Below, one piece after another: positions 12,592 to 35,715 of a stretch of DNA of 39,729 bases; positions within the stretch are counted from its first letter, which is position 1, and the number at the start of each line of letters is the position of its first letter. Position numbers and translations under genes: made by a program. Origin of the DNA: a virus. The stretch spans positions 1-39,729 of IMG/VR virus record IMGVR_UViG_3300048919_000152; one strand, written 5' to 3'. The notes under the pieces were generated by a model. The model had not been told where the DNA came from and did no database searches. It saw nothing but the letters and a program-made list of their open reading frames with translations.

Positions 12592-12822
12592 ATGACCGTC
12601 ATGATCGTCACTGAGGGCGGTGCTGCCGGACCCGTGGATGTGTCACAATGGAAAGATGTCCTCGACCCTTTTGCGACGGGCACCATGTATAAAATAGGCG
12701 ATACCATACGAAACGGCGAAGAAATCCTCGTCGCGGTCGAACCCACATTGGCGAGGAATGGCCGGACGAGTAAACCCCAAAAATCGCCCGCGCCATTCCT
12801 CGGCCATATCAGGGAACCGTAA
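12592..12822 (+). CDS. Plus-strand 76-aa moron protein
   Basis: It is transcribed against the surrounding head and tail genes. AAAGGA lies about ten bases before the ATG. The protein contains DVSQWKDVLDPFATGTMYK and IGDTIRNGEEILVAVEP. The pattern of Gly, Asp/Gln, Val/Ile, Arg/Lys, Asn and then a hydrophobic strand resembles the GRGQRVKNAGNVYVSV stretch of the neighbouring SGNH protein and small beta modules of fibre proteins. Its 3' end overlaps the convergent SGNH gene by 14 bases. A virion or surface-binding accessory role is possible; function is unknown. Confidence 0.6.
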   Translation: MTVMIVTEGGAAGPVDVSQWKDVLDPFATGTMYKIGDTIRNGEEILVAVEPTLARNGRTSKPQKSPAPFLGHIREP

Positions 12823-14260
12823 CGAGCGCAGACAGCACCTCGCCAAGCTTTGCCCCCATCCGATGCCCTGCATATTCGCCGCCGCGCTGATTGGGATGTG
12901 CAGACGTGATGTACCATTGCCCGGAGCCAGTCGACGAACTGCCGAAGAAGCCCGACCCCGCGACCGCTGTGGCAAACGGAACCCAAATCACGCGAGGGTC
13001 ATTCAGCGCCGTGATGGCCGTGCGCAGCCATAGGTCGTTATTGCTCTCCACGCCGTCGAGCCCATCACCCCAGATGCCAGTGAAGATGAAATAAGCCGTC
13101 GCACCCTTGGCCCCCAACGCGGTGCGAGCATCGGTCAGGAATTGACTGACAGTGGCGGTCACATTGGCCTGACTGGTGCCAGACGAGTTGATGCTCGAAC
13201 AGACATGCACGATGTCGGGCTGGAACGCGGTGAGCCACGCCAATCGCGCTGCCGAGCCATAGGGATTTGTCGCATGGTAGAGGCTCGTGCCGGAAACTGA
13301 TTGGTTGAAGACATCTTCAAACCCCAGGTCCGCCCAGCAAATCTGGCTGAACGCGCCCGCATCGCGCGACTGGATGAACTCGTTCCCGAACGAGTCGGTG
13401 TAGACCAGAACCTTCGCGCCGAAGCGTTCGCCGCGCGGTGCCCAGCAGGCGCTATCGGCCCCCGTCGTTATGTACCGGATGCCATTGCTGTTGACCCAAT
13501 CGAACGATGTGGCGATGCGCCAGTTCTTCTTTTTGGGAAAAGTTACCGTCATGTAGAGCGTGCCACCGCCGCCGCCCGGATAGCAATATTGAGTATCCTG
13601 CAAGTATCGCCCATCGATTACGATATTGAAGCCTGTGCCCGGATTGGTCACGGCAATCGCAAGCGTCAGCACGCGCTCATCGGTGTCGAACATGATCCGC
13701 CCGCGCGATTGCTCGGACGCTCCGGTATCCAGCCCATTCGTATTGTCGGTCGGGATGTGACCGAGGGCGCGATACCATTCGTTGTTGCGAATTACCGATG
13801 TCGCACCGGTGGCTAGGGTCGCGGCGGCGTTCTGATACGACTTTGCAGGCGTGACCGGCGCAGTAGTGCTGAGGGTGAATGTCGGCGCGAACGGGTCGTT
13901 GGCGTAGTCCAGCGGGCCCATGTAGAGCCAATTCACCGTTCCATCCGCTACCGGAGCGGGCGTCGTGTGGACTGGCGGGGAGGATGCGCCCGTAGTGCCC
14001 GTCGTCGTAGTCGCTCCCGACTGCACGGAAACGTAGACATTTCCCGCGTTCTTCACTCGCTGACCACGCCCATAAGCGAAGTTGGCCTGGTAGTCGTCCG
14101 GCACGAGCCAAGGCTTGGTCAGGTGCCGGCGAGGCCCGGCCGCCCCCATGATGCTGCGGATGCGCGTCAGGGTGGTGTCCGCCAGGGCAGCATTAAGGTT
14201 AGCCGCCATCGGCAAGGCTTTGAACTGCGCCGGCGTGAGGCTTTCGAGGGCGGTCGTCAT
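12809..14260 (-). CDS. SGNH/GDSL-hydrolase-like virion protein
   Basis: The 483-aa protein has a helical N terminus (ALESLTPAQFKALPMAANLN). A small beta module follows (about 58-115: FAYGRGQRVKNAGNVYVSVQ and VADGTVNWLYMGPL). After a beta region comes an SGNH-like domain. Visible blocks are VLVYTDSFGN (Ser290), QSVSGTSL (Gly324), HVCSSINSS (Asn358) and TSAHPNQRGG (His455). The Asp expected three before His is Thr452, so catalysis may be altered. It is coupled to the Ig-like gene (ATGA) and sits between capsid and connector genes. I infer a virion-associated esterase that removes acyl groups from surface polysaccharide, or a binding derivative of one. Confidence 0.7.
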   Translation of the reverse strand: MTTALESLTPAQFKALPMAANLNAALADTTLTRIRSIMGAAGPRRHLTKPWLVPDDYQANFAYGRGQRVKNAGNVYVSVQSGATTTTGTTGASSPPVHTTPAPVADGTVNWLYMGPLDYANDPFAPTFTLSTTAPVTPAKSYQNAAATLATGATSVIRNNEWYRALGHIPTDNTNGLDTGASEQSRGRIMFDTDERVLTLAIAVTNPGTGFNIVIDGRYLQDTQYCYPGGGGGTLYMTVTFPKKKNWRIATSFDWVNSNGIRYITTGADSACWAPRGERFGAKVLVYTDSFGNEFIQSRDAGAFSQICWADLGFEDVFNQSVSGTSLYHATNPYGSAARLAWLTAFQPDIVHVCSSINSSGTSQANVTATVSQFLTDARTALGAKGATAYFIFTGIWGDGLDGVESNNDLWLRTAITALNDPRVIWVPFATAVAGSGFFGSSSTGSGQWYITSAHPNQRGGEYAGHRMGAKLGEVLSALVTVP

Positions 14261-16004: not shown

Positions 16005-17003
16005 TCAGATCCCATCCACGAACGAAATGGCCTTGGGGATACGGTTCTCGTAGCCACCGATCGCCATGATGCCGGGGACCTCCCACGAGAACGGGCCCTT
16101 CTGCCACGACGGGAAGAACTGGTGACCGCCACCGGGCAGGTGGAAGCGGTGAACCTCGCGGGTGTTCGCGTAGGCGATCAGCCGCTTGGTGCTGCTGGCG
16201 CCGGCTGTTTCAAGATGGCGGCTGCGCTTGATCGTGAGGTTCGGAACGACCGAATTCTCGCGAATGTAGTTCAGCACGGACATGCCCGTGTCGGTCATAC
16301 GCCGCGACGCCAGGTCGTTATAAGTGCTGGTCGGCAACGCCAACGTCGTGGCCTGGTAGGTTTCGCCGGTATTGACCTCGACCGAGGTCAGGGCGGCGTT
16401 CACGACCGCGACGGCCGCGTCCGGAGTGCCTGCGCCGAGCGTGGCGCCTGCGGTCGACGTGGTAGCCAGCGGGTTGTTGATGAAGCCGGTAGGAAACTTC
16501 AGCCCGTCGCCGCGCATGCCGACCTTGTGAATGAAGCGCTCGGCCGTCTTGGTTGCCGCATCCGCCTTATCCGCAAGGATATTGATGCCGAGCTGCTGAG
16601 CCCGCTCGAGGTCGCCCCGGTTCCACTTGTAGCCGATCGCGGCCATGTGGTTTTCCTGCAGGAACTGCGTCCGGCTCGAATCGGCGTAGGGCATGTCGTC
16701 TGCCGCCACGTCGTACCATTCCGGCTTACCGGCGATGTCGCCCGAATAGAACAGCGAGCCGGCCGTCCAGACGGTGCCCTCGGTATCGACAGGCATGAAC
16801 TCGGCATAATCCGCGAGCGGATATTTGACCATGTAGACGCCCTGCTCGACCCGCAAGAGCTGCGGGGCGATGAACGCCATGGTCTGCTGAGCGTCGCCCA
16901 GATCGACGCCGCGAATAGCGGCGATGAAGCTGACGCCCGGAACATCGGGGTTAGCGTCGAGGTAGGCGACCGCCGACTGAACGGAATCGAAAAACTTGGA
17001 CAT
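16005..17003 (-). CDS. Major capsid protein, DUF2184-type
   Basis: This 332-aa protein has the DUF2184 features: long helical N terminus (AYLDANPDVPGVSFIAAIRG), YPLADYAEFMPVDTEGTVW in the E-loop region, then YKWNRGDLERAQQLGINILA. It lies after a decoration protein and the DUF2213 protease/scaffold candidate and before connectors, the normal place. DUF2184 proteins are HK97-fold major capsid proteins of alphaproteobacterial and other siphophages. The start (MSKFFDSVQSAVAYL) fits the gene spacing of 13 bases to the upstream stop. Confidence 0.85.
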   Translation of the reverse strand: MSKFFDSVQSAVAYLDANPDVPGVSFIAAIRGVDLGDAQQTMAFIAPQLLRVEQGVYMVKYPLADYAEFMPVDTEGTVWTAGSLFYSGDIAGKPEWYDVAADDMPYADSSRTQFLQENHMAAIGYKWNRGDLERAQQLGINILADKADAATKTAERFIHKVGMRGDGLKFPTGFINNPLATTSTAGATLGAGTPDAAVAVVNAALTSVEVNTGETYQATTLALPTSTYNDLASRRMTDTGMSVLNYIRENSVVPNLTIKRSRHLETAGASSTKRLIAYANTREVHRFHLPGGGHQFFPSWQKGPFSWEVPGIMAIGGYENRIPKAISFVDGI

Positions 17004-17475: not shown

Positions 17476-18579
17476 TTAGGCGGCGTCGCTGCGGTGGGCG
17501 GACTGCTTCTCCGCGAGCCATGCGGCGCGGGAGGAAGCGATTGCGGTGCGGGCATCGCCCAGATTGACTGGCTGGCCGGTGATGGTCTTAGGCGCAGTGG
17601 CCCCGCCGGCGGCGTAGGCGGTGAAAGCGCCCTCGATCGCAGCGTCGGCCATGGTCTTGACCTTCTCGTCCCCCAGCTTGGCCGTGACTGCGGCCTTGCG
17701 GATCTCGGCGTCGGTCAGGCCATCGGTGACCAGCTTGTCGCCCGCGATCTTCTTGGCGTCCGAAATGATGACGGCGCGGGCGGCGGCGAGCTGCTGCAGC
17801 TTCTCCGGGGTGACCACCGCATCCTTGACCTGCTGCTCGAGCGCGACGATCGCGCCGTCGCGGGCCTCGACCGTGGTCTTAAGCGCGGCGTTCTCCGCCG
17901 TCAGCGTGCCGACCTGCTTCTGCGCGTCGGCCAGGGTGGCGTTGAACGCGCCGATCGCGACTGCAACCGCCGCGCTATCCGACAGGTCCACCTCGGCATC
18001 GCCGATCTTGATCTTCATGGGTTTAGTCTCCGGGATGGTGCGCTCATCGACGATGCGCAGGTCGTGTCCGCCGCGGGCCGATCGGCACATGGCGAGGTGG
18101 TTGTAAGAGGGTGCGGTCATCGACCCGTCGTATTCGGCGTCGCCGAACTTGCCGGGGATCATCTCGAGGTCGGCCGAATAACCCCACGAGAATTCGGGGT
18201 GCGTCGTCTGGATCGCCTTCACGGCCTTGGCGTCCATGACCATGACGGGCACGACCATGGTCTCGCCGTCACGCATGATCTCGCCGCCGGTGTCACCGAC
18301 CGAGAGCGACTTCCAGTTCTCGGCGGTGACGTCTTCTTTCGGGTGATCGACGACGATCGGGCGGTGGAGCGCGCTCTTGAGCGAATCCTTCGCGAAGATC
18401 GCGCTTTCCGGGCGGAAGATGCGATAGGGTGTGCCGTCAGCCTTGGGCGGAAGCCCGAGCTCGGACGGCTGATAATCCTGAATATTGTTGGCTTTCGCGA
18501 CCCGGGCATTGGCCACGAAGTGCCCTTCCCGCGTGATGCGGGCCGGTCCATCGATCAAGGCGCGGTCGTGAAAAATCAT
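17476..18579 (-). CDS. Prohead protease/scaffold, DUF2213-type
   Basis: The 367-aa protein begins MIFHDRALIDGPARITREGH and holds YRIFRPESAIFAKDSLKSAL, HRPIVVDHP and FSWGYSADLEMIPGKFGD, which are DUF2213 features. From about residue 190 the sequence becomes a long Ala/Glu/Lys-rich coiled coil (LADAQKQVGTLTAENAALKT), a likely scaffold domain, ending in a hydrophobic-poor tail. It precedes the cement and major capsid genes. It is expected to assemble and mature the prohead. A one-mismatch late element (18612-18624) is 45 nt before the ATG and no Shine-Dalgarno sequence is visible. Confidence 0.8.
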   Translation of the reverse strand: MIFHDRALIDGPARITREGHFVANARVAKANNIQDYQPSELGLPPKADGTPYRIFRPESAIFAKDSLKSALHRPIVVDHPKEDVTAENWKSLSVGDTGGEIMRDGETMVVPVMVMDAKAVKAIQTTHPEFSWGYSADLEMIPGKFGDAEYDGSMTAPSYNHLAMCRSARGGHDLRIVDERTIPETKPMKIKIGDAEVDLSDSAAVAVAIGAFNATLADAQKQVGTLTAENAALKTTVEARDGAIVALEQQVKDAVVTPEKLQQLAAARAVIISDAKKIAGDKLVTDGLTDAEIRKAAVTAKLGDEKVKTMADAAIEGAFTAYAAGGATAPKTITGQPVNLGDARTAIASSRAAWLAEKQSAHRSDAA

Positions 18580-19412: not shown

Positions 19413-19541
19413 ATGGCGAGCGGAGATGCAGGCGAGATACTCAGGAAGATCGAAGAACTGCATCGTGAATTGCGGCGGGTTCACGATGATTTGACGCGTG
19501 TGAAACAGGATGTTGCTTACATAAAGTCGCACACGCGCTAA
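19413..19541 (+). CDS. Plus-strand 42-aa coiled-coil moron protein
   Basis: AAGGA is six bases before the ATG. The product (EILRKIEELHRELRRVHDDL, then TRVKQDVAYIKSHTR) is a single amphipathic coiled coil. It is transcribed against its neighbours and its stop overlaps the stop of the convergent head gene by four bases (CTAA). A GATAAT hexamer lies 22-27 bases upstream and may be its -10 box, though no good -35 is visible. It may be a small autonomous moron such as an anti-repressor or exclusion peptide; this is inference. Confidence 0.6.
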   Translation: MASGDAGEILRKIEELHRELRRVHDDLTRVKQDVAYIKSHTR

Positions 19542-20347
19542 TCGAGCACCAGCACAGCCTGCTCGCGGCACCCGCAAAACGGTAGTGTCCCGGCCCGATC
19601 TTCCGGCGCCGTCGCCTCGCTGTAGATCTTCCCATCTCGCGCCATATGTTCTTTTCGGCCATGCCGCTTATGCGACCATCGCCATTTGAACGACGTGATC
19701 CCCGCATCGGCGCGCCGCTCGCGGTCCAGCGCCGACGACAGCTTCACGAGCTGGTCCGACGCGATGTTGATCGAGCGGCGCCGGCCCATAGCGATAGCTT
19801 CGCGGATCTGCGCGGCGACCTCGCGCGCAGGCCGACGATCGCGGAACCCGGCGAACACCGCCGCCGTGATGCGCTGCTGCGCCTGGCTGCTGACGTCCTT
19901 CATGAGCGCGACGTTCCAAGCGATCGTGTCGGCGAGCGAGGTCGGGACGCCGCTGGCGATCAGGATCGTTTCAAGATCGACGCCCGTCGCGGTGAGGACG
20001 GCACCGCGCCAACGCGCGCGATGATGCTGCTCATAGCGAACGGTCCAGTCGCGCAGCTCGGGAACAAGCTCGAGGACGAGGCGGGTAAGCTCTTCGCCAA
20101 GGCTTTCGAGCAACGCGCCAAGGTCGGCGATAGAGTCGGTGATCAGCGCGTCTCGCACCGGCAGCGATCGATCGTACTCCGCGATGATCCGCGGTACCGC
20201 CGCCGTCCAACCGCCGATGATTGGCCGATAGCAGGCACGAAACAGGTCGGCCGCGAACATCGATGGCGGCGCGATGTCGCGCAGCACGATCTGCGACACG
20301 CGCGGATTGCGCGCGCGGCGGGTCAGCGCAGCGAGATCATAGCGCAT
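19538..20347 (-). CDS. Head morphogenesis protein, Mu gpF-like
   Basis: The 269-aa protein follows the portal and has the SPP1 gp7/Mu gpF C-terminal signature: KWRWSHKRHGRKEHMARDG, then RAGTLPFCGCRE with the cysteine pair. The N-terminal two-thirds are helical (IIAEYDRSLPVRDALITDS). Proteins of this type bind the portal and take part in head assembly or DNA ejection. It ends in convergent overlap with the small plus-strand gene. Confidence 0.8.
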   Translation of the reverse strand: MRYDLAALTRRARNPRVSQIVLRDIAPPSMFAADLFRACYRPIIGGWTAAVPRIIAEYDRSLPVRDALITDSIADLGALLESLGEELTRLVLELVPELRDWTVRYEQHHRARWRGAVLTATGVDLETILIASGVPTSLADTIAWNVALMKDVSSQAQQRITAAVFAGFRDRRPAREVAAQIREAIAMGRRRSINIASDQLVKLSSALDRERRADAGITSFKWRWSHKRHGRKEHMARDGKIYSEATAPEDRAGTLPFCGCREQAVLVLD

Positions 20348-20464: not shown

Positions 20465-22912
20465 TCACGACTTCCGCATCGACTTGAGCGCGACGATCTG
20501 CGCGTTGGGCCGGATTTCCTCGACATACTGATATTCATGTCCGTCGATCGAGGCGGTATATTCGAGCCGCTGCAGCTTACGCCGCCCAGCCTCGCCGATC
20601 GCGCGGATGCTGTGGGCGCGCTCGACGATTTTCGGGATGCGGGCAAGATCCGCGTTGCTGATCGCGCGCTGTCCGCGCGCCGCCTCGCGCGCCTCGGACC
20701 CATGGTTTTTCAGCACGTGACGGATATCACTGGTTTCGAGGACGCGTTCGTGACCGGCAATATCGACGCCGGTTAGCGTCTTCACCTTGGCCGCATTCCG
20801 TGACGATACGGTACCGAGTGACGTGCGAGCGTGCTGATGACCTGGCAACCGTGCCTGCTCGACGTGCGCTTCGATGCGGTCGCCCTTGCTTGTCCACCGA
20901 CCGGCAGTACCACGCGGATGATCGGTTTCGCGATAGGTGGAATTCGGCCGATGTGAGCCGCTACGGCCGCGCCGGCTCTTTCCATCACCGAAAGGGCGGC
21001 GTTGCTCATCCTCCGCGTCTTCGATGATGGTCTTTTCCCAATCATCGACGACCTCGGAAAACAGTTCGGGACCGAACTTCAGCGGCCCGACATAGGGCTT
21101 CACCTTCGCCAGATCGAGACCGGCGGGCTTTGCGTAGGTGATCGTGACATGCGGCTGATATTCGTCGAAGTCGAAGGACGCACCCGCTTCGATCATCGCG
21201 TCGTGGCGCCATTTTAGGTCATTCGACGAGAACAGCAGAACGACTGCGCCCTTGTCGCCTAGCGGCTCGACCAGGCGCGCGCCGCCGGCGGGCACGACGA
21301 GGGTACCGTCCTTATCGCTGCTCCAATCCTGCCCGATCTTCATCCAGTCGAGGGGGCGACGCGAGAAGGTGATCGTGACGTGTATCTCATCAGCCGGCGT
21401 GGTGGTTTCGAAGCCTTCCTTCTTTGCCCAGCGGATCAAGTCGTCGGCGTTCAGAAGCTTGCGCTGCACGTATAGCGTGCGCGGTGCGGCGTCGGTAAAA
21501 CGCGCGTCGTTCGCAGCGCGGCGGCGCGGGGCGGGCGTCGCTCCACCGGCCTGCAGCGCGCTCGGATCCTCGTCGTCGTCGTCATTCGCCGCTGACAGGC
21601 CGAAGCGCTCGTCCTCGGGTATCTCGGACAGCGCATCGTCGAGGCCAGGCACCCAACCACGCTCGCTGAGCAGGTTCTGCAGGCCCTTGCTGAACGCCTC
21701 GTCAGGGATAGACCCCGTGTTCTGCAGCGCTGTCACGGCCTCCATCGTCGTCTTGAACGTCGTCGCTTCCTCGGCCTCGGTCGGCGTGGAAAGCGGCGCG
21801 AACTGAAACCAGACCTTCTCGTCGACCTTGCCCAGCGCCGACGGGATTAGCGCGACGTCGAGCCGCGCAAGACATGGCCGCATTTCGAGATCCTGCCGGG
21901 ATTTGACCTCGGCTTCCCATATCTGCTGATCGCCCTTGCCTGTGGCGTTCATGCCGGCCGGGGACCGTCCGAGCAGCACGGTCTCTGGCATATTGGCGGC
22001 AGCGGCGGCGACAGCGAGGTACGAAGCCTTGATATCCGGGATACCAGCCCAGACCATCTGCCGATCGTCGAGCTTCTCGCCGCCCTTGCCCTCACTGTCG
22101 CCGCCGTCGAGGAAGGTGACGCCGAGGCTGCTCTCGCCCACGGCCAATGCCTGCGCTCGCTTGCGGAATCGGCCTTCATCCTCGGTTGTCGCGAGGCGTT
22201 CCGTCAGCTTGGGGACGTAAAGCCGGCGGTTGTGCGCATCCTTGATCAGGGCCGCGAAGCCGTTTTCAGACGTGTGGACATTGTCGACCGCATCCCTGAC
22301 GACCTGCACCTTGCTGTCGCCCCACCATATATCCTGCCAGTCCATCGCGACGCTATCGCCCGGCTCGTCGCCTCGGAACGTGATCACGCGCGACGGGTGG
22401 AATTTGACGAGCTTCGCGGGGCCGGTGAGATTGACCTGATAATAGCTCGGGTGCCCGAACCATGGATCGCCCCAGGTGTCGATTGACTGGCCGACCGAGA
22501 AGCGGCTGCGGTGCCAGACGTGGAGGTCGGTAATGCTGCCGGCGCGGATCCGCTTGGGATCGAGCGGCTGCTCCTGATCGTCGTCAGCAATATAGATGAC
22601 CATCGCGGCGCCGCCCAGGCCGCGCAAGATCTCCGCTTTCTTGAACTTCTCGCGGACACCGAGGCGCGTTTCCTCCGCCTCGAGCTTTTCGATATTGGGC
22701 TTGTCGGTTTGCCAGTCGCGCCATTCGCGGACCATATCGGCCGCTGGTTTTACGATGATCTTGCGGATGAGCCACGACGCCCGGAACGCTGCGAATATCT
22801 CCTCATCGCTCAGGCGGAGGAACATGTAGCGGTTATGCGCCCGTGGATCGTTGCCGAAGCCGAGACCGGATATGGCGTTGACCAACCCGTCGAAGAAATT
22901 GCGAACGCCCAT
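20465..22912 (-). CDS. Portal protein fused to Acb1-like 2H phosphoesterase and PBECR-like nuclease domain
   Basis: At 815 aa it is far longer than a bare portal. Residues 1-430 are a DUF1073-type portal, starting MGVRNFFDGLVNAISGLG with VWHRSRFSVGQSID and LAVAAAAANMPETVLLGRSP. A Pro/Ala/Arg linker follows. Residues 478-630 hold a 2H-phosphoesterase-like domain with two H-x-T motifs: EIHVTITFSRRP (His511, Thr513) and YQPHVTITYAKP (His588, Thr590). This pair is the catalytic signature of 2H enzymes, including anti-CBASS Acb1, a family named with DUF1073. Residues 660-815 begin DHPRGTAGRWTSKGD. They contain SDIRHVLKNHGSEAREAARG and ADLARIPKIVERAHSI, resembling the PBECR nuclease-like domains at C termini of phage head proteins. 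A late element lies 45 nt upstream. Confidence 0.8.
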   Translation of the reverse strand: MGVRNFFDGLVNAISGLGFGNDPRAHNRYMFLRLSDEEIFAAFRASWLIRKIIVKPAADMVREWRDWQTDKPNIEKLEAEETRLGVREKFKKAEILRGLGGAAMVIYIADDDQEQPLDPKRIRAGSITDLHVWHRSRFSVGQSIDTWGDPWFGHPSYYQVNLTGPAKLVKFHPSRVITFRGDEPGDSVAMDWQDIWWGDSKVQVVRDAVDNVHTSENGFAALIKDAHNRRLYVPKLTERLATTEDEGRFRKRAQALAVGESSLGVTFLDGGDSEGKGGEKLDDRQMVWAGIPDIKASYLAVAAAAANMPETVLLGRSPAGMNATGKGDQQIWEAEVKSRQDLEMRPCLARLDVALIPSALGKVDEKVWFQFAPLSTPTEAEEATTFKTTMEAVTALQNTGSIPDEAFSKGLQNLLSERGWVPGLDDALSEIPEDERFGLSAANDDDDEDPSALQAGGATPAPRRRAANDARFTDAAPRTLYVQRKLLNADDLIRWAKKEGFETTTPADEIHVTITFSRRPLDWMKIGQDWSSDKDGTLVVPAGGARLVEPLGDKGAVVLLFSSNDLKWRHDAMIEAGASFDFDEYQPHVTITYAKPAGLDLAKVKPYVGPLKFGPELFSEVVDDWEKTIIEDAEDEQRRPFGDGKSRRGRSGSHRPNSTYRETDHPRGTAGRWTSKGDRIEAHVEQARLPGHQHARTSLGTVSSRNAAKVKTLTGVDIAGHERVLETSDIRHVLKNHGSEAREAARGQRAISNADLARIPKIVERAHSIRAIGEAGRRKLQRLEYTASIDGHEYQYVEEIRPNAQIVALKSMRKS

Positions 22913-23424: not shown

Positions 23425-23437
23425 GTTACCGCCGTCA
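23425..23437 (-). promoter_or_regulatory. Copy 8 of the 13-bp late element, before the tRNA
   Basis: Exact TGACGGCGGTAAC. Its TGA is the stop codon of the large terminase gene. The next feature is the initiator tRNA, 49 nt downstream, which argues against a purely translational role for the element. Confidence 0.75.
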
Positions 23438-24925
23438 GAACGCGTCTGGATTGTAGGTATAGCTATCCCCAAGCATCAACTCGGTCAGCATCCACACCAT
23501 CGCGTCCATCCGATCGGGTGATCCCGACCCTTGAAACCCGGCCGTCGTCGTCATGGTCATCTCTTCTTCGAGATCCGGAAACGACCCGACATGATGGACC
23601 TTGCCCTGCTCATAGAGCGCGGCAACCGGCTCCGCACGGACAACCTTGCCGCGGGACGCGTTGACGAGCTTGACGGGCAGGTTCGGTGCCCCGGTCAGCA
23701 GCACGGCCTCAACCATCGCGCCGCCGTAGTTGCGCTCGGCTGCGACGCGATCAGCGCCGAACTCCTGCGCGGCCCGCTGGACGACCTTGGCCCAACCTGC
23801 CGGCGACAGGCGGCACGATCGATCCGCGAGCACATAGCCGTGCCCATCGGTCCCGAGCGCGCCAACGATTATGCCCTGGCTATCGCCGCCGGTGCCGTCT
23901 GAGCCCGAGGGATCGACGCCTATGACGACGCGGGCGAGCGGTGGCACCTCATGCCGGCGCAACGCTTCTATCCCCGGTATTGGCTTGCCATCGTCGGCAA
24001 CGCGATCGGACAGCGACCATAGCGCGCCAGGCACCTCGCTCAGATACTTGCCATCGCGGAATCGCTGGCGCTGCTTGTCGGGCAGGCCGTCCAGTTCTTC
24101 GTGATATTCAGCCGGCAGATGGGGATTATCGACCGGGTTCATCACCACATAGGCGCGGCTTCCCTCCTGAATCGGCATGCCGTTATCGGGTCGGACCTTC
24201 TCGACGAACTCCCGATATGACCAATGACTGCGGCCGGTAGGGTTGAGATCGTAGAGCATTTTAAGCGGGAGCCGCGTGCCGTCGCGCAGGAAGGTCGATT
24301 GCGCGAGGCGGGTCCGCAGCGTCAGGATGGTGTTGTAAACGACCTGGCTGCTTTCGTTGACGTAGATCGTCGCGAATTCCTTGCCGAGGATCTTATCGAT
24401 GCGATCGGCGTCATCGAGGCCACCGAACCATACCTCCGACCCATCGCCCAGCGTCGCGAACTGATCGGATTTGTTGAGGCTGTACCGAACATCTGGAAAG
24501 GCAAGGCGCATCATCTTCGGCCAGGTGTCGAGCATGACCGACTGGCGCACATCGATGTTATGGAGGCGGGCTATCAGGTGTCGGCTTTCCGGTGCCTGTA
24601 GCGCGCGTTCGGCAACGACTTCGCAGATGCCGAAGGTCTTGCCTGATCGCGATCCGCCGTAGGAAAGGACGTGACGGGCGGTGCCGTTGATGGCCTCCCA
24701 TTGTTCCTGCTGCTTCACGGTGCGCTCGAACGATGCCGTGGGAGTGCCGGTAAGTTGTCGGCGCGCATCACCCCCCTCAGCGAAGGCGCGCGCTTGCTCC
24801 TCTAATCGCTGACGGTCGAAATCGGATGCGAGGCGAAGCTCCGCCGCCCGCCGATTGCGAGCGCGTATCTGATTAAGATGGCTGGCATTTAGCGAGAAGG
24901 CTCTCAAGCTGCTCTGCCTCTTCAT
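23435..24925 (-). CDS. terL: Large terminase subunit
   Basis: The 496-aa protein has Walker A SYGGSRSGKT (residues 88-97), a Walker B-like FATIYVNESSQV, and nuclease motifs VVIGVDPSGSDGTGG and SGSPDRMDAMVWML. An adenine-binding motif QQEQWEAINGTARHV precedes the P loop. It packages DNA into the prohead with ATP hydrolysis and cuts the concatemer. It overlaps the small terminase by 53 bases. The N-terminal 60 residues are Arg/Ala-rich, so a later start within them is possible. Confidence 0.95.
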   Translation of the reverse strand: MKRQSSLRAFSLNASHLNQIRARNRRAAELRLASDFDRQRLEEQARAFAEGGDARRQLTGTPTASFERTVKQQEQWEAINGTARHVLSYGGSRSGKTFGICEVVAERALQAPESRHLIARLHNIDVRQSVMLDTWPKMMRLAFPDVRYSLNKSDQFATLGDGSEVWFGGLDDADRIDKILGKEFATIYVNESSQVVYNTILTLRTRLAQSTFLRDGTRLPLKMLYDLNPTGRSHWSYREFVEKVRPDNGMPIQEGSRAYVVMNPVDNPHLPAEYHEELDGLPDKQRQRFRDGKYLSEVPGALWSLSDRVADDGKPIPGIEALRRHEVPPLARVVIGVDPSGSDGTGGDSQGIIVGALGTDGHGYVLADRSCRLSPAGWAKVVQRAAQEFGADRVAAERNYGGAMVEAVLLTGAPNLPVKLVNASRGKVVRAEPVAALYEQGKVHHVGSFPDLEEEMTMTTTAGFQGSGSPDRMDAMVWMLTELMLGDSYTYNPDAF

Positions 24926-29891: not shown

Positions 29892-30467
29892 TCAGGCGGC
29901 TTCGAATTTCTCGGTTTCGTTGCCCCAGGATTCCCATCCCGGGCGCGAGGTTCGAGCGAACAACTCGACGTAGGGTCCGCCGTACATGCGCTCGATATCG
30001 GCGGGCACGCGGTCTGGCTTACGGCTGTGTTCGCGGACCGGCTCGACGATCAGCGAACGGACGGCGCGGGACCGTGGCAGGCCAACGTCACCAATGGTGC
30101 CGAGCAGACAGATCTCGGCGTTGGCGCGGGTCGAATAGCCGAGCCCCATGTGCCAGTCGGTGTCGCGGCGGGTGCGTTTGGCCCACGTGAAAGCGACGGT
30201 CGTATAGCGAAACCCCCACGCCTTCATGACTTCGATCGCTCTGTCGAGGAGCGGGTTCGTCGCCCATAGGAATAGGGCGCAGCGCTCCTGTGCGAGATGG
30301 CCGACCGGGAGCGCCGCGATCTGATCGATCGACATGCAATCATAATGACGAGCCGCGTTTTTCCATTCGCCGGCCTTCGAATAGTTCTCGTAACGCCAAG
30401 GCGGGTCCGCGTAGATCACGCGGTAACCGAACATGCGCAGGTCGCCGAAAGGCCATTCCGCACTCAT
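29892..30467 (-). CDS. MT-A70-family adenine DNA methyltransferase
   Basis: The start is ATG 30467, overlapping the upstream stop (ATGA). The 191-aa product has VIYADPPWRYENYSKAGEW with the DPPW catalytic motif. RCALFLWATNPLLDRAIEVM, FAWAKRT-like FTWAKRTRRD and RKPDRVPADIERMYGGPYVE follow, all typical of MT-A70 N6-adenine methylases of phages. It would protect phage DNA from restriction or mark it. Its place in the early operon fits pre-packaging modification. Confidence 0.9.
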   Translation of the reverse strand: MSAEWPFGDLRMFGYRVIYADPPWRYENYSKAGEWKNAARHYDCMSIDQIAALPVGHLAQERCALFLWATNPLLDRAIEVMKAWGFRYTTVAFTWAKRTRRDTDWHMGLGYSTRANAEICLLGTIGDVGLPRSRAVRSLIVEPVREHSRKPDRVPADIERMYGGPYVELFARTSRPGWESWGNETEKFEAA

Positions 30468-30643
30468 GCGCGCCGCCATTCGACAATGTCGAAGTCATAG
30501 GGCGAGACCTTCGGCATATCTGACCAGCGCCGCGACCGGGCCTCGACGGGGCCAAACTCAACGCCGCCACGGTACCGACCGATGACCAGCGTCGAGCCAG
30601 CAACCGGCATCCGGCCGGGATTGGGGGCGAACGCGCGCGCCAT
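30464..30643 (-). CDS. Unknown 59-aa protein
   Basis: The start is ATG 30643 (TGATG with the preceding stop) and the end overlaps the methylase start. The sequence (STLVIGRYRGGVEFGPVEAR, then WSDMPKVSPYDFDIVEWRR) is beta-rich and ends in a Trp-containing tail. No family recognised. Confidence 0.6.
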   Translation of the reverse strand: MARAFAPNPGRMPVAGSTLVIGRYRGGVEFGPVEARSRRWSDMPKVSPYDFDIVEWRRA

Positions 30644-32309: not shown

Positions 32310-32552
32310 CTATGCCACCGCCTGCGTCGCGGGAGTTTCGCGGGGGATGGCGTCCGGATCGGGGCTGATCCAAGACTGCATCGCCACATTGCCATCGGTA
32401 TGCGTCTCGATGGCAGCGGCGGTGTCGATCGTGGGGCGCACCAACCCTCGTCGCAGCTTGCTGACCATGCTGCGGTCGCGGCCGATTTTCAGGGCGAAGT
32501 CGGCATCCGTGATGCCTTCTCGTTTTAAATAGCTGTCTAGGGCGGTGCTCAT
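32310..32552 (-). CDS. Cro-like repressor
   Basis: From ATG 32552 the 80-aa product has SYLKREGITDADFALKIGRD then RSMVSKLRRGLVRPTIDTAA, a helix-turn-helix like that of Cro/CI proteins. It is divergent from the CI-like gene across 94 bases that hold three operators. Its promoter (32559-32587) puts +1 at or next to the A of the ATG, so the mRNA is probably leaderless. It heads the leftward early operon. Confidence 0.8.
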   Translation of the reverse strand: MSTALDSYLKREGITDADFALKIGRDRSMVSKLRRGLVRPTIDTAAAIETHTDGNVAMQSWISPDPDAIPRETPATQAVA

Positions 32553-32558
32553 GCCCTT

Positions 32559-32587
32559 ATTATGTGCACCTGATGCACATCGGTCAA
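32559..32587 (-). promoter_or_regulatory. Promoter of the Cro operon
   Basis: On the minus strand TTGACC (32587-32582), 17 bases, CATAAT (32564-32559), then six bases to the ATG at 32552. Operator 32562-32580 fills the space between the boxes, so repressor binding would block RNA polymerase. Confidence 0.8.
32562..32580. promoter_or_regulatory. CI/Cro operator 1 (perfect palindrome)
   Basis: ATGTGCA-CCTGA-TGCACAT, a perfect 7-bp inverted repeat with 5-base spacer. It lies inside the Cro promoter. Confidence 0.85.
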
Positions 32588-32594
32588 GCACGTT

Positions 32595-32613
32595 ATGTGC
32601 ATACGATGCGCAC
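32595..32613. promoter_or_regulatory. CI/Cro operator 2
   Basis: ATGTGCA-TACGA-TGCGCAC. The left half is perfect; the right half has two changes. Its centre is 33 bp from operator 1, about three helical turns. Confidence 0.7.
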
Positions 32614-32640
32614 GACAGGCGTACCCGCGCTGTGCATATC
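32612..32640 (+). promoter_or_regulatory. Candidate promoter of the CI-like gene
   Basis: ACGACA (32612-32617), 17 bases, CATATC (32635-32640), then six bases to the ATG at 32647, predicting a leaderless mRNA like lambda cI from PRM. The -35 box is weak (four of six), as expected for a maintenance promoter helped by bound repressor. Confidence 0.55.
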
Positions 32641-32648
32641 AATCACAT
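32630..32648. promoter_or_regulatory. CI/Cro operator 3 (degenerate)
   Basis: CTGTGCA-TATCA-ATCACAT. It has the same arrangement with changes in both halves and overlaps the CI-like start codon, so binding here would shut off the repressor gene. Confidence 0.55.
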
Positions 32649-33327
32649 GGTAGATACACGGTGGTTTCAGGCCCGAAAGGCCGAGTTGGGAATCAGCGAC
32701 GCGACGATTGCGACGGCGATCGGGCGCGAGCGATCGGTAGTTTCGAAGCTGCTGAACGGCAAGGTCGCGTTCGATCCGGTCACGGTACCGGCTTTCGCCA
32801 AGGTGCTCGAAGTCGCGCCGGATGAGGTCCTTGTCCGATTTGGCGTGCTCGACGCGCCTGCGCCGCGCGGGCCGGAAGCCGATAACCCCGTAACCAAGCG
32901 GGCGCACCGCGATGACGATACCGTCGAGATATTACAGGTAGATTTTAGCTGGTCGATGGGGCCTGGCACGTCCGTCGACGATTACATCGAGGAGACGCCG
33001 GTAAGGTTCGATCTGGATTACATCCGGAGCTTCACCCGCACAGCGCCGGCCAAGCTGCGTATCGGGCGCGGAGTAGGGGACAGCATGTTCCCGACGCTGG
33101 TCAGCAGCGACCTTGTTTGGATCGACACGACGCAGCGGATGCTCAACCAGGCTGATCGGATATGGGCGATTTCCCTCTATGGCGCGGCCGGCATCAAACG
33201 GTTGCGGACGATCGGCCCGAACAGGGTGCTGGTGATGTCGGACAATCCCAGTGTGCCCGATCAAGAGGTGGACGCTGACGATCTGGTGATCGGAGGCCGC
33301 GTCATCCGGTTTTCGCGGGATTTGTAG
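32647..33327 (+). CDS. CI-like repressor with S24 peptidase domain
   Basis: From ATG 32647 the 226-aa protein has an N-terminal HTH (RKAELGISDATIATAIGRER, then SVVSKLLNGKVAFDP) and a C-terminal LexA/S24 domain. Catalytic residues are visible in RGVGDSMFPTLVSSDLVWID (Ser146) and YGAAGIKRLRTIG (Lys184). The linker (FGVLDAPAPRGPEADNP) contains no obvious Ala-Gly cleavage site, so self-cleavage needs testing. Longer in-frame sequence upstream covers the operators and is unlikely to be coding. It keeps lysogeny by binding five operators at two loci. Confidence 0.9.
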   Translation: MVDTRWFQARKAELGISDATIATAIGRERSVVSKLLNGKVAFDPVTVPAFAKVLEVAPDEVLVRFGVLDAPAPRGPEADNPVTKRAHRDDDTVEILQVDFSWSMGPGTSVDDYIEETPVRFDLDYIRSFTRTAPAKLRIGRGVGDSMFPTLVSSDLVWIDTTQRMLNQADRIWAISLYGAAGIKRLRTIGPNRVLVMSDNPSVPDQEVDADDLVIGGRVIRFSRDL

Positions 33328-33394: not shown

Positions 33395-35308
33395 ATGACA
33401 TACAGACCCGACATCGACGGACTTCGGGCACTCGCTATATTGTCGGTACTTGCGTTTCACTTTCAGATCGGCCGCTACAGCAACGTCGGGTTTATCGGCG
33501 TGGATGTCTTTTTCGTCATCTCCGGTTATCTGATCTGTTCCGGCGTCGTTGGGCAAATGGAGCGCGGGACCTTTTCGCTGCGAAGCTTTTTTGAGCACCG
33601 GGTTAGGCGACTGGCGCCGGCGTTTATCCTCGTTCAGATCGTGACGTTAATAGTCGCTGCCGCGCTCTTTCTCCCATTGGAGTTGGCGGCGCTGGCGAGA
33701 GAGACCGTGTTCTCGCAGCTCTTCGTTTCGAATATCTATTATTGGCAGAATCTGAATTATTTCGCACTGACCGCGCAGCATGCCTACATGCTTCACACGT
33801 GGTCGCTATCAGTTGAGGCGCAGTTTTATATGCTGCTGCCCGTGACCCTGCTGCTGGCCAGACGTGTGGCGCCCCGGCATATGTCTGGCGTTTTGTTGCT
33901 CTCAGGACTGGTGTCCATCGCGCTCAATTTCCTGTTCGTTGCGAGCAAGCCGGAGGCGACCTTTTTCCTGCTCGCGACGCGGTGGTGGGAATTTGTCGCT
34001 GGCGCGATGGCCATTCGGATCCAGCCCGCATTTGTCGATCGCGCGTGGCTGCGCACTGCCGGAGCGGCCTCTGCGATCGTTCTGATAGTTTGCACAATCC
34101 TGCTTTACGAACCGTCGATGGGCATCCCAGGCTGGTTCACGCTCATGCCCGTAGCGGCGACCTGCCTCGCGATCGTTTCAGGGGCCGGCGACGGAAACTC
34201 TTTACTTCGGATCCTGCATCTGCGCGGCGTCGTTTGGGTGGGAAAGCTCTCGTACCCGCTCTACCTTGTGCACTGGCCAATAGCGGTTTTCGTAGCAAAT
34301 ATCCTGCCGACCTTCGGTGATTTCGGCCGGGTATGGCTGATCGGTTCGACCATCGAGTTCGGTATCGCCGTTTATATCGCTGAGACGATAATCCGGCGGC
34401 GAACGCTGCCGTGGAGCGGCCGCAAAGTGATCGCGACCTACATGGCGTGCGCCGCAGTTATCATCGTAGTATGTGCCTCGGCATGGGCCAGCGCGGGATG
34501 GCGGTGGAGGTTTTCGCCCCATGCTTTGACAGCGGCGGATGTCGCGGGACGAGGGACCGGCATAGCGGACTATGCCTATGTCGACGGCTCGCTGCCCGCG
34601 AAGCTCCACAGAGTAGGAGCGCCCGGTGCGCCGCCGCATTGGCTGATCCTCGGAGATTCCCACGCCGCAGCTCTGGCGCTCGCTTTCTCTAGCTGGCTGC
34701 AACAGCGTGGCGAGGCCGGTTATATTGCCTACAGCCCGGGCTGCGTGCCGGTCGCCACGAACATCGAACCGCGATGTCAGCGGTTGATGCGCGCCGCTCT
34801 CAGCTACCTGAAGCAAGACCGCCAGATCGGGAGCGTGATGCTGGTGTCGATATGGCGCAATGTGCTTGGCGATCAGCGCCGAGCTTCTCCCCGTGACGGC
34901 GGTGTCGACGCTAACATTGTCCCGGATATACATCGCACTGTCACAGAGATGAAGACAATGGGCCTCCGCCTCTACGTCTGGGAGCCTATACCCTCCATGC
35001 CAACCTCAGTTCCGGAGACTATCGCGCGGGCACGAATATTCGGCGGACCGGCAGATATGACGGCAAGCCTGCGCGCCTATCGAGCCGATACCGCGGCCCT
35101 GCGCGCGGCTCTGGATCGTGAAGGGGGGCTCATCGATGGTCGGATAGATCCTTCATTGGCGATGTGTGATGCGGATCGCTGTTTCGGATCTCTACGAGGC
35201 GAGCCCCTTTTGAGAGACAGCAATCATCCCGCGCCAGGCCAATCGGCCTATTTCGCGGCTATGATGACTGCTCAGCTCGCAAGCGCGCCCAAGGCGATAG
35301 CCCGCTAA
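33395..35308 (+). CDS. Membrane acyltransferase with SGNH domain (AT3/OafA type), lysogenic conversion candidate
   Basis: The 637-aa protein begins YRPDIDGLRALAILSVLAFH and GVDVFFVISGYLICSG, the acyltransferase-3 signature, followed by about ten membrane helices. The C-terminal third is a periplasmic SGNH domain with HWLILGDSHAAALALAF (Ser) and LRDSNHPAPGQSAYF (Asp/His). Such enzymes acetylate O-antigen or other surface glycan. It lies next to the repressor gene and reads in the same direction, so it can be expressed in the lysogen. It may change the surface and block superinfection. The 67-base gap before it shows no clear terminator or promoter. Confidence 0.9.
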   Translation: MTYRPDIDGLRALAILSVLAFHFQIGRYSNVGFIGVDVFFVISGYLICSGVVGQMERGTFSLRSFFEHRVRRLAPAFILVQIVTLIVAAALFLPLELAALARETVFSQLFVSNIYYWQNLNYFALTAQHAYMLHTWSLSVEAQFYMLLPVTLLLARRVAPRHMSGVLLLSGLVSIALNFLFVASKPEATFFLLATRWWEFVAGAMAIRIQPAFVDRAWLRTAGAASAIVLIVCTILLYEPSMGIPGWFTLMPVAATCLAIVSGAGDGNSLLRILHLRGVVWVGKLSYPLYLVHWPIAVFVANILPTFGDFGRVWLIGSTIEFGIAVYIAETIIRRRTLPWSGRKVIATYMACAAVIIVVCASAWASAGWRWRFSPHALTAADVAGRGTGIADYAYVDGSLPAKLHRVGAPGAPPHWLILGDSHAAALALAFSSWLQQRGEAGYIAYSPGCVPVATNIEPRCQRLMRAALSYLKQDRQIGSVMLVSIWRNVLGDQRRASPRDGGVDANIVPDIHRTVTEMKTMGLRLYVWEPIPSMPTSVPETIARARIFGGPADMTASLRAYRADTAALRAALDREGGLIDGRIDPSLAMCDADRCFGSLRGEPLLRDSNHPAPGQSAYFAAMMTAQLASAPKAIAR

Positions 35309-35715
35309 TGCCGATTCCTACCATGTCCCTCGATGTCGTCGGCGTCGATCATCCGAACCGGAAAAAGCAGGTCCCGCGCCGCTTCGAGATCGAAATGTGC
35401 TCGCCCGGCGAGCCGGTCGAACTGATCCCCGAGCCGACGAATCCTGCTGACGAGCGCGCCGTTGCCGTCTTTAGCGCGCGGGGAATACAGATCGGCTATC
35501 TCCGCGCCGAACGCGCGCCACTGATCGGCGGCATGATCAAGGCAGGCACCGAGATTCGGGCGATCTTTCAAGCGGCGACCAAATGGGGCGCGATCGTCCG
35601 CATCACGACCGACGGAACCGACCCGGTCTTGCCGCTTCCGTCGGTCCGCGACGTGCCGCCCGCAAGCGCCGATGATTCGGGCTTCTATCCCGATCCGGAG
35701 TGGCCCGACGACTGA
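35308..35715 (+). CDS. HIRAN-domain protein
   Basis: The ATG overlaps the acyltransferase stop (TAATG). The 135-aa product has LDVVGVDHPNRKKQ, VELIPEPTNPADERAVAVFS and ARGIQIGYLRAERAPLIGGM, which is the HIRAN pattern. HIRAN domains bind damaged or stalled DNA ends. It is coupled to the conversion gene, so it may also be expressed in the lysogen. The Asp/Pro-rich tail is not conserved-looking. Confidence 0.8.
   Translation: MPIPTMSLDVVGVDHPNRKKQVPRRFEIEMCSPGEPVELIPEPTNPADERAVAVFSARGIQIGYLRAERAPLIGGMIKAGTEIRAIFQAATKWGAIVRITTDGTDPVLPLPSVRDVPPASADDSGFYPDPEWPDD

Follow-up and report, generated by a model that had tools for sequence, protein, structure and literature searches.

The stretch of DNA analysed here (the window) is a 39.7-kb virus record in which a portal protein continues, within one open reading frame, into two further domains. 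The initial annotation had placed an 815-residue protein at 20465-22912 and had divided it into a DUF1073 portal, an Acb1-like 2H phosphoesterase and a PBECR-like C terminus. The coordinates and the length are right, the strand is minus (22912 down to 20465), and the three-domain make-up stands, all three Pfam domains exceeding their curated cut-offs. The genes on the same strand follow in the order terminase large subunit, fusion, MuF-like protein, head maturation protease, major capsid protein and tail genes; the neighbourhood of the fusion is an ordinary head module. The features of the locus are as follows.

20465..22912 (-), portal-2H-PBECR3 fusion protein, 815 aa (ORF, translation, Pfam)
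21731..22801 (-), Phage_portal_3 domain (PF06381, DUF1073), residues 38-394; Pfam E 1.9e-88
21494..21622 (-), linker 1, residues 431-473, with disorder in most of the part from 443 on (pLDDT <50); cargo-exchange junction
21032..21481 (-), Acb1-type 2H phosphoesterase domain (PF23474), residues 478-627; Pfam score 129.5 bits (cut-off 27)
21374..21382 (-), first HxT motif, H511-V-T513
21143..21151 (-), second HxT motif, H588-V-T590
20834..21016 (-), linker 2, residues 633-693, disordered (pLDDT <50 for 635-693)
20894..20920 (-), HPRGTAGRW boundary motif, residues 665-673; confined to PBECR-tailed portals
20471..20809 (-), PBECR3 RNase-like domain (PF18812), residues 702-814, candidate active-site His732, His737 and Ser811; Pfam score 59.1 bits (cut-off 30)
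23435..24925 (-), terminase large subunit (context)
19538..20347 (-), MuF-like minor head protein, the next gene downstream of the fusion (context)
17476..18579 (-), head maturation protease, DUF2213 (context; could be a processing enzyme)
16005..17003 (-), major capsid protein (context)

The domain matches are not due to chance, since their E-values lie far below threshold, the AlphaFold folds are confident and further proteins of the same make-up exist. The presence of several diverged portal-2H-PBECR3 proteins in other viral contigs (L010, L024/L025, L141 and L143) makes an assembly artefact very unlikely. NCBIfam gives a sub-threshold portal match only, and PADLOC returns nothing. Base composition does not point to recent acquisition: the GC content of the domains (0.61-0.63) is in line with that of the window (0.63), the linkers have values of 0.65 and 0.72, and GC3 in linker 2 is lower, at 0.61. 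The ATG, GTG and TTG codons of residues 431-720 give no support to internal starts that would release the 2H or PBECR3 domain alone; codon 540, which lies within the 2H domain, is the only one of these start codons with a Shine-Dalgarno-like stretch upstream.

Several other genes of the window have distinctive features. An S24 peptidase with a helix-turn-helix is repressor-like (32545-33327, plus strand), and the phage may accordingly be temperate. A protein that combines acyltransferase-3 and SGNH domains (33395-35308, plus strand) is a possible modifier of host surface polysaccharide. The window also encodes an MT-A70 type methyltransferase (29892-30479, minus strand), a HIRAN-domain protein (35308-35715, plus strand) and, in the head-tail region, a 483-residue protein with a weak GDSL-lipase match (12809-14260, minus strand).

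Domains and linkers of the fusion protein

The AlphaFold2 model of the full protein, built with an 82-sequence alignment, has a mean pLDDT of 82.7, and its three domains are mostly confident. Residues 443-474 and 635-693 mostly have pLDDT values below 50, so that, in the model, the 2H and PBECR3 domains both hang on flexible linkers by which they are tethered to the portal. The N-terminal part is the DUF1073 portal that had been proposed: besides the Phage_portal_3 match at residues 38-394, it superposes on the portal of cyanophage Pam3 (8hds) with a Z score of 27.9, and profile match, fold and gene position between terminase and MuF all place it in PF06381. The Pam3 structure has 442 of its 621 residues modelled, and its alignment to the window model ends at residue 432. 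The Pam3 2H domain, at about 463-618, lies beyond the aligned part and is not modelled in the virion structure. Since the alignment ends before this domain, it would be mobile, removed or unbuilt in the mature virion; as an ordered element it is missing from the mature Pam3 portal model.

Superposition of the 2H domain on Acb1 of phage FBB1 (7t27) gives a Z score of 17.1 and a deviation of 1.9 Å over 135 residues, extending up to residue 629, which bears out the proposed 2H fold. Both HxT motifs are where the initial annotation had put them, and in the alignment to T4 gp57B, His511, Thr513, His588 and Thr590 correspond to H44, T46, H113 and T115 of T4 Acb1. Conservation was assessed in 127 distinct portal-2H proteins, with a median pairwise identity of 37% in the portal and 57% in the 2H domain. 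In this set Tyr481 and His511 are invariant (127/127), Thr513 and His588 are each kept in 126 proteins, and position 590 is Thr or Ser, also in 126 of 127. The base-stacking aromatics Y12, F107 and W147 of Acb1 are present as Tyr481, Phe582 and Trp625, the last being Trp in 109 of the 110 proteins in which that column is filled. Another base-stacking residue, W74, which contacts the substrate and lies outside the catalytic tetrad, is not kept: Glu549 is aligned with it, and the column has no Trp in the portal-2H group, where it is Glu or similar. Trp530, found in a nearby loop in 125 of the 127 proteins, could stand in for W74. The column of E141, which contacts adenine N6, holds Ser619 in the window and Glu in most other members, while Glu616, three residues away, is present in all 127. 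Because W74 is not kept and the counterpart of E141 is ambiguous, the nucleotide preference of the 2H domain may differ from that of T4 Acb1. The conservation of the HxT motifs and of most of the Acb1 pocket argues for an active 2H enzyme, since loss of function would have eroded the near-invariant catalytic residues.

The C-terminal domain had been called PBECR-like on account of RHVLKNHG (residues 731-738) and ADLARIPKIVERA, both of which lie within the PBECR3 domain; the profile score of 59.1 bits and the predicted active-site residues agree with this assignment. According to the text of Iyer et al. 2017 (PMC5512222), PBECR domains are RNases that have the BECR fold and combine a histidine in the helix with a Ser/Thr at the C-terminal end, and this configuration is present as His732, His737 and Ser811. 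In the PBECR3 alignment, each of the two His residues is kept in 11 of 12 sequences, and position 811 is Ser or Thr in all 12. Modelled alone, the domain has a pLDDT of 85.4 and shows good similarity to predicted polyvalent phage nucleases. The top PDB alignments are to BrnT, RelE-type and CdiA toxins, with moderate Z scores of about 4 to 6.7. With Foldseek, no PDB entry matched the model at E <= 0.001, and the weakly scoring entries returned were mainly NTF2-like folds; the RelE/BECR reading comes from the structural alignments (best Z 6.7) and the Pfam profile. As judged from the models, the 2H fold is firmly and the PBECR3 fold moderately supported.

Distribution and exchange of the cargo domains

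The portal-2H form predominates in this portal group. It is found in Pam3 and in Synechococcus, Rhizobium and Pseudomonas phages, and PHROG 146 covers both the portal and the 2H domain. Among 131 portal-2H proteins with closed ends in the collected loci, the window excluded, 126 stop right after the 2H domain and five have a longer tail. The tail is a different domain in L002 and PBECR3-like in L010, L024 (of which L025 is a near copy), L141 and L143, where the Pfam PBECR3 cut-off is passed by the L143 tail only, those of L010 and L141 lying below it; Pfam did not report the L024 tail, and since the home-made profile included this sequence, its PBECR assignment comes from a tblastn match to the window and an alignment. 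A scan with the PBECR domain as a single sequence recovered no relatives, and one with an alignment recovered five loci. The triple fusion, singled out in the initial annotation as the outstanding feature, is thus not unique: at least four further portal-2H-PBECR3 examples are known, and both two-domain fusions already appear in the text of PMC5512222, published in 2017.

Each of the two enzymatic domains also occurs without the other, so that their pairing is not obligate. In L046, PBECR3 follows directly after the portal with no 2H domain, and in Rhizobium phage RHph_N28_2 it is a standalone gene behind a portal that lacks 2H. In all PBECR-tailed portals encountered, the cargo begins with a PRxxxGRW-type motif, which none of the remaining scanned portals has. 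Portals of three Pfam families, PF06381, PF04860 (L205) and PF06074 (L210 and L211), have members of the 2H family as C-terminal fusion partners, and a MuF protein (L013) contains one as well.

Four of the collected loci have unusual architectures of their own. The portal-2H protein of L002 (5680-6414, plus strand) has a 245-residue C-terminal extension in the cargo slot, for which Pfam gives no match and PHROG none of significance. In L205 (976-3252, minus strand), an HK97-type portal (PF04860) with Acb1 is followed by a PRGPDGRF linker and a further domain without assignment. In L125 (364-2541, plus strand), from an alphaproteobacterial genome, PBECR3 (residues 381-490) lies inside a 726-residue GMP synthase ORF, as an insertion of roughly 180 residues before the C-terminal part of the synthase. 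L122 (1641-9683, plus strand) encodes a 2681-residue polyvalent protein with PBECR3 and an ADP-ribosyltransferase domain.

Cargo domains are exchanged between portals at domain edges, as judged from tables of pairwise identity rather than from change counts on a tree, in which L025 was labelled 2H despite its PBECR-like tail. The portals of L046 and L021 are 91% identical, with PBECR3 in the former and 2H in the latter occupying the same slot; their DNA is 87% identical through the portal to the linker, dissimilar over the cargo and similar again downstream. The portals of L020 and L026 are 90% identical and their 2H domains 43% identical. The reverse is seen in L065 and L074, with portals 33% identical and 2H domains 96% identical; here the DNA identity (93%) is almost confined to the 2H domain, running from -41 to +485 nt with the gene end at +474. 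Portal and 2H pairwise identities correlate only at 0.50, and in some close relatives the 2H domain is missing or an unrelated fold takes its place. This modularity, which the initial annotation does not mention, is a more striking property of the group than the triple fusion itself, and the exchange of enzymatic cargo on portals is the strongest new point.

Probable function of the portal-borne domains

The architecture is real and well supported, and a function is strongly suggested: the portal C terminus is probably a swappable cargo slot for counter-defence enzymes. Residues 1-430 would build the portal ring. The Acb1-type 2H domain, on its disordered linker, most likely destroys cyclic oligonucleotide alarm signals such as those of CBASS, as its family membership and predicted fold suggest, and the PBECR3 domain, behind the second disordered linker with its PRGxxGRW motif, most likely acts as an RNase within the infected or target cell. 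A CBASS target is plausible, since PF18144, a CBASS-type nucleotidyltransferase, is over the cut-off in 19 of 296 sampled genomes from the order of Stakelama, the host of the relative L092. Portal C termini generally face the head interior, so two routes are possible for the cargo, of which a particle presumably holds about 12 copies: action in the infected cell during late assembly, when the portal is made, or release within the head through the maturation protease, followed by ejection together with the DNA. These two routes are about equally likely.

It is unlikely that PBECR3 and the other tails are toxins with which the particles kill competing cells, even though the constant trunk, the boundary motif and the exchangeable C-terminal domains are what a polymorphic-toxin device of a temperate phage would have, with the 2H domain as separate cargo. 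MuF toxins (PMC5576092) provide a precedent, and the S24-type repressor suggests that the phage is temperate, but the 117-bp gap before the MuF gene holds no candidate immunity gene, and the sole cargo of most portals in the group is 2H, a member of a counter-defence family and not a known toxin. It is somewhat harder still to credit that the two enzymes work together on RNA with no cyclic nucleotide defence involved, PBECR3 cutting RNA to 2',3'-cyclic phosphate ends and 2H opening them, thereby blocking host repair. Both domains are in one chain in the window, L010, L024, L141 and L143, and, according to the text of PMC5512222, RNA 2',3'-cyclic phosphates are substrates of the 2H enzyme class. 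The pair is, however, not obligate: 126 of the 131 portal-2H proteins have no tail at all, and PBECR3 lacks a 2H partner on L046 and has a gene of its own in RHph_N28_2. The 2H domain itself belongs to the Acb1 family and has the Trp147 lid position conserved.

The least probable of these alternatives is that the extra domains are portal decorations with a structural or DNA/RNA-binding role and no catalysis. Retention of 2H in most portals of the group and the 12-fold symmetry favour such a role, and the MuF protein of phage Mu has an inactive PBECR domain, as stated in the text of PMC5512222. Nevertheless, the catalytic residues are near invariant at a median portal identity of about 37%, the Pam3 virion structure has no modelled 2H domain, and some close relatives are without this domain or have an unrelated fold in exchange for it.

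The reading of the portal C terminus as a slot for counter-defence enzymes has a broader form, which is possible but doubtful, in which tailed phages in general use this terminus as a docking site for delivery. Counter-defence and effector domains would then be loaded as exchangeable cassettes onto portals of several families and, either cut free or tethered in the head, enter the next host with the DNA, and alarm nucleotides would be destroyed as soon as infection begins. If the portal-borne 2H domain is active, many phages, at least those of Alphaproteobacteria and cyanobacteria, have a counter-defence enzyme built into the protein that nucleates head assembly, and this enzyme would be either timed to capsid assembly or delivered with the genome. 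The 2H/PBECR swaps on near-identical portals are natural pairs for testing.

Comparison with known systems

Acb1 is an anti-CBASS nuclease whose residues have been assigned their roles (PMC9117128), and in the published work it is a free protein that the phage produces in the infected cell; the word "portal" is absent from the main text of that paper. The window 2H domain has in common with T4 gp57B and FBB1 Acb1 (PF23474) the 2H fold, the HxT/HxT tetrad, the Y12 and F107 positions and the lid Trp147. T4 Acb1 is a free protein of 152 residues, whereas the window 2H domain is part of a portal and a predicted enzyme that lacks W74 and has an ambiguous counterpart of E141.

Among portals, that of Pam3 and those of PHROG 146 have the same arrangement of a portal fold followed by a 2H domain. 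Unlike the window protein, the Pam3 portal ends after 2H, has HxS as its second motif and lacks PBECR3. Fusions of 2H and PBECR to portal and MuF proteins, among them the portal-2H and portal-PBECR forms, are described in the text of Iyer et al. 2017 (PMC5512222), where it is also suggested that 2H might degrade the nucleotides of counter-invader systems. The three-domain protein and the cassette exchange were found described neither there, the comparison covering the text without the figures, nor in the other literature searched. For PBECR3 (PF18812), the profile match, the helix His, the C-terminal Ser/Thr and moderate RelE/BECR-like alignments are all found in the window, but the carrier is different: here it is a portal, with PBECR3 behind a 2H domain, rather than a MuF or a giant polyvalent protein.

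The MuF polymorphic toxins (PMC5576092) share with the window protein a constant virion-protein trunk with exchangeable C-terminal effectors, located near the packaging genes. The trunk in the window is, however, a portal without an N-terminal MuF domain, MuF being the next gene; the intervening 117 bp contain no candidate immunity gene, and one of the two effectors belongs to a counter-defence family.
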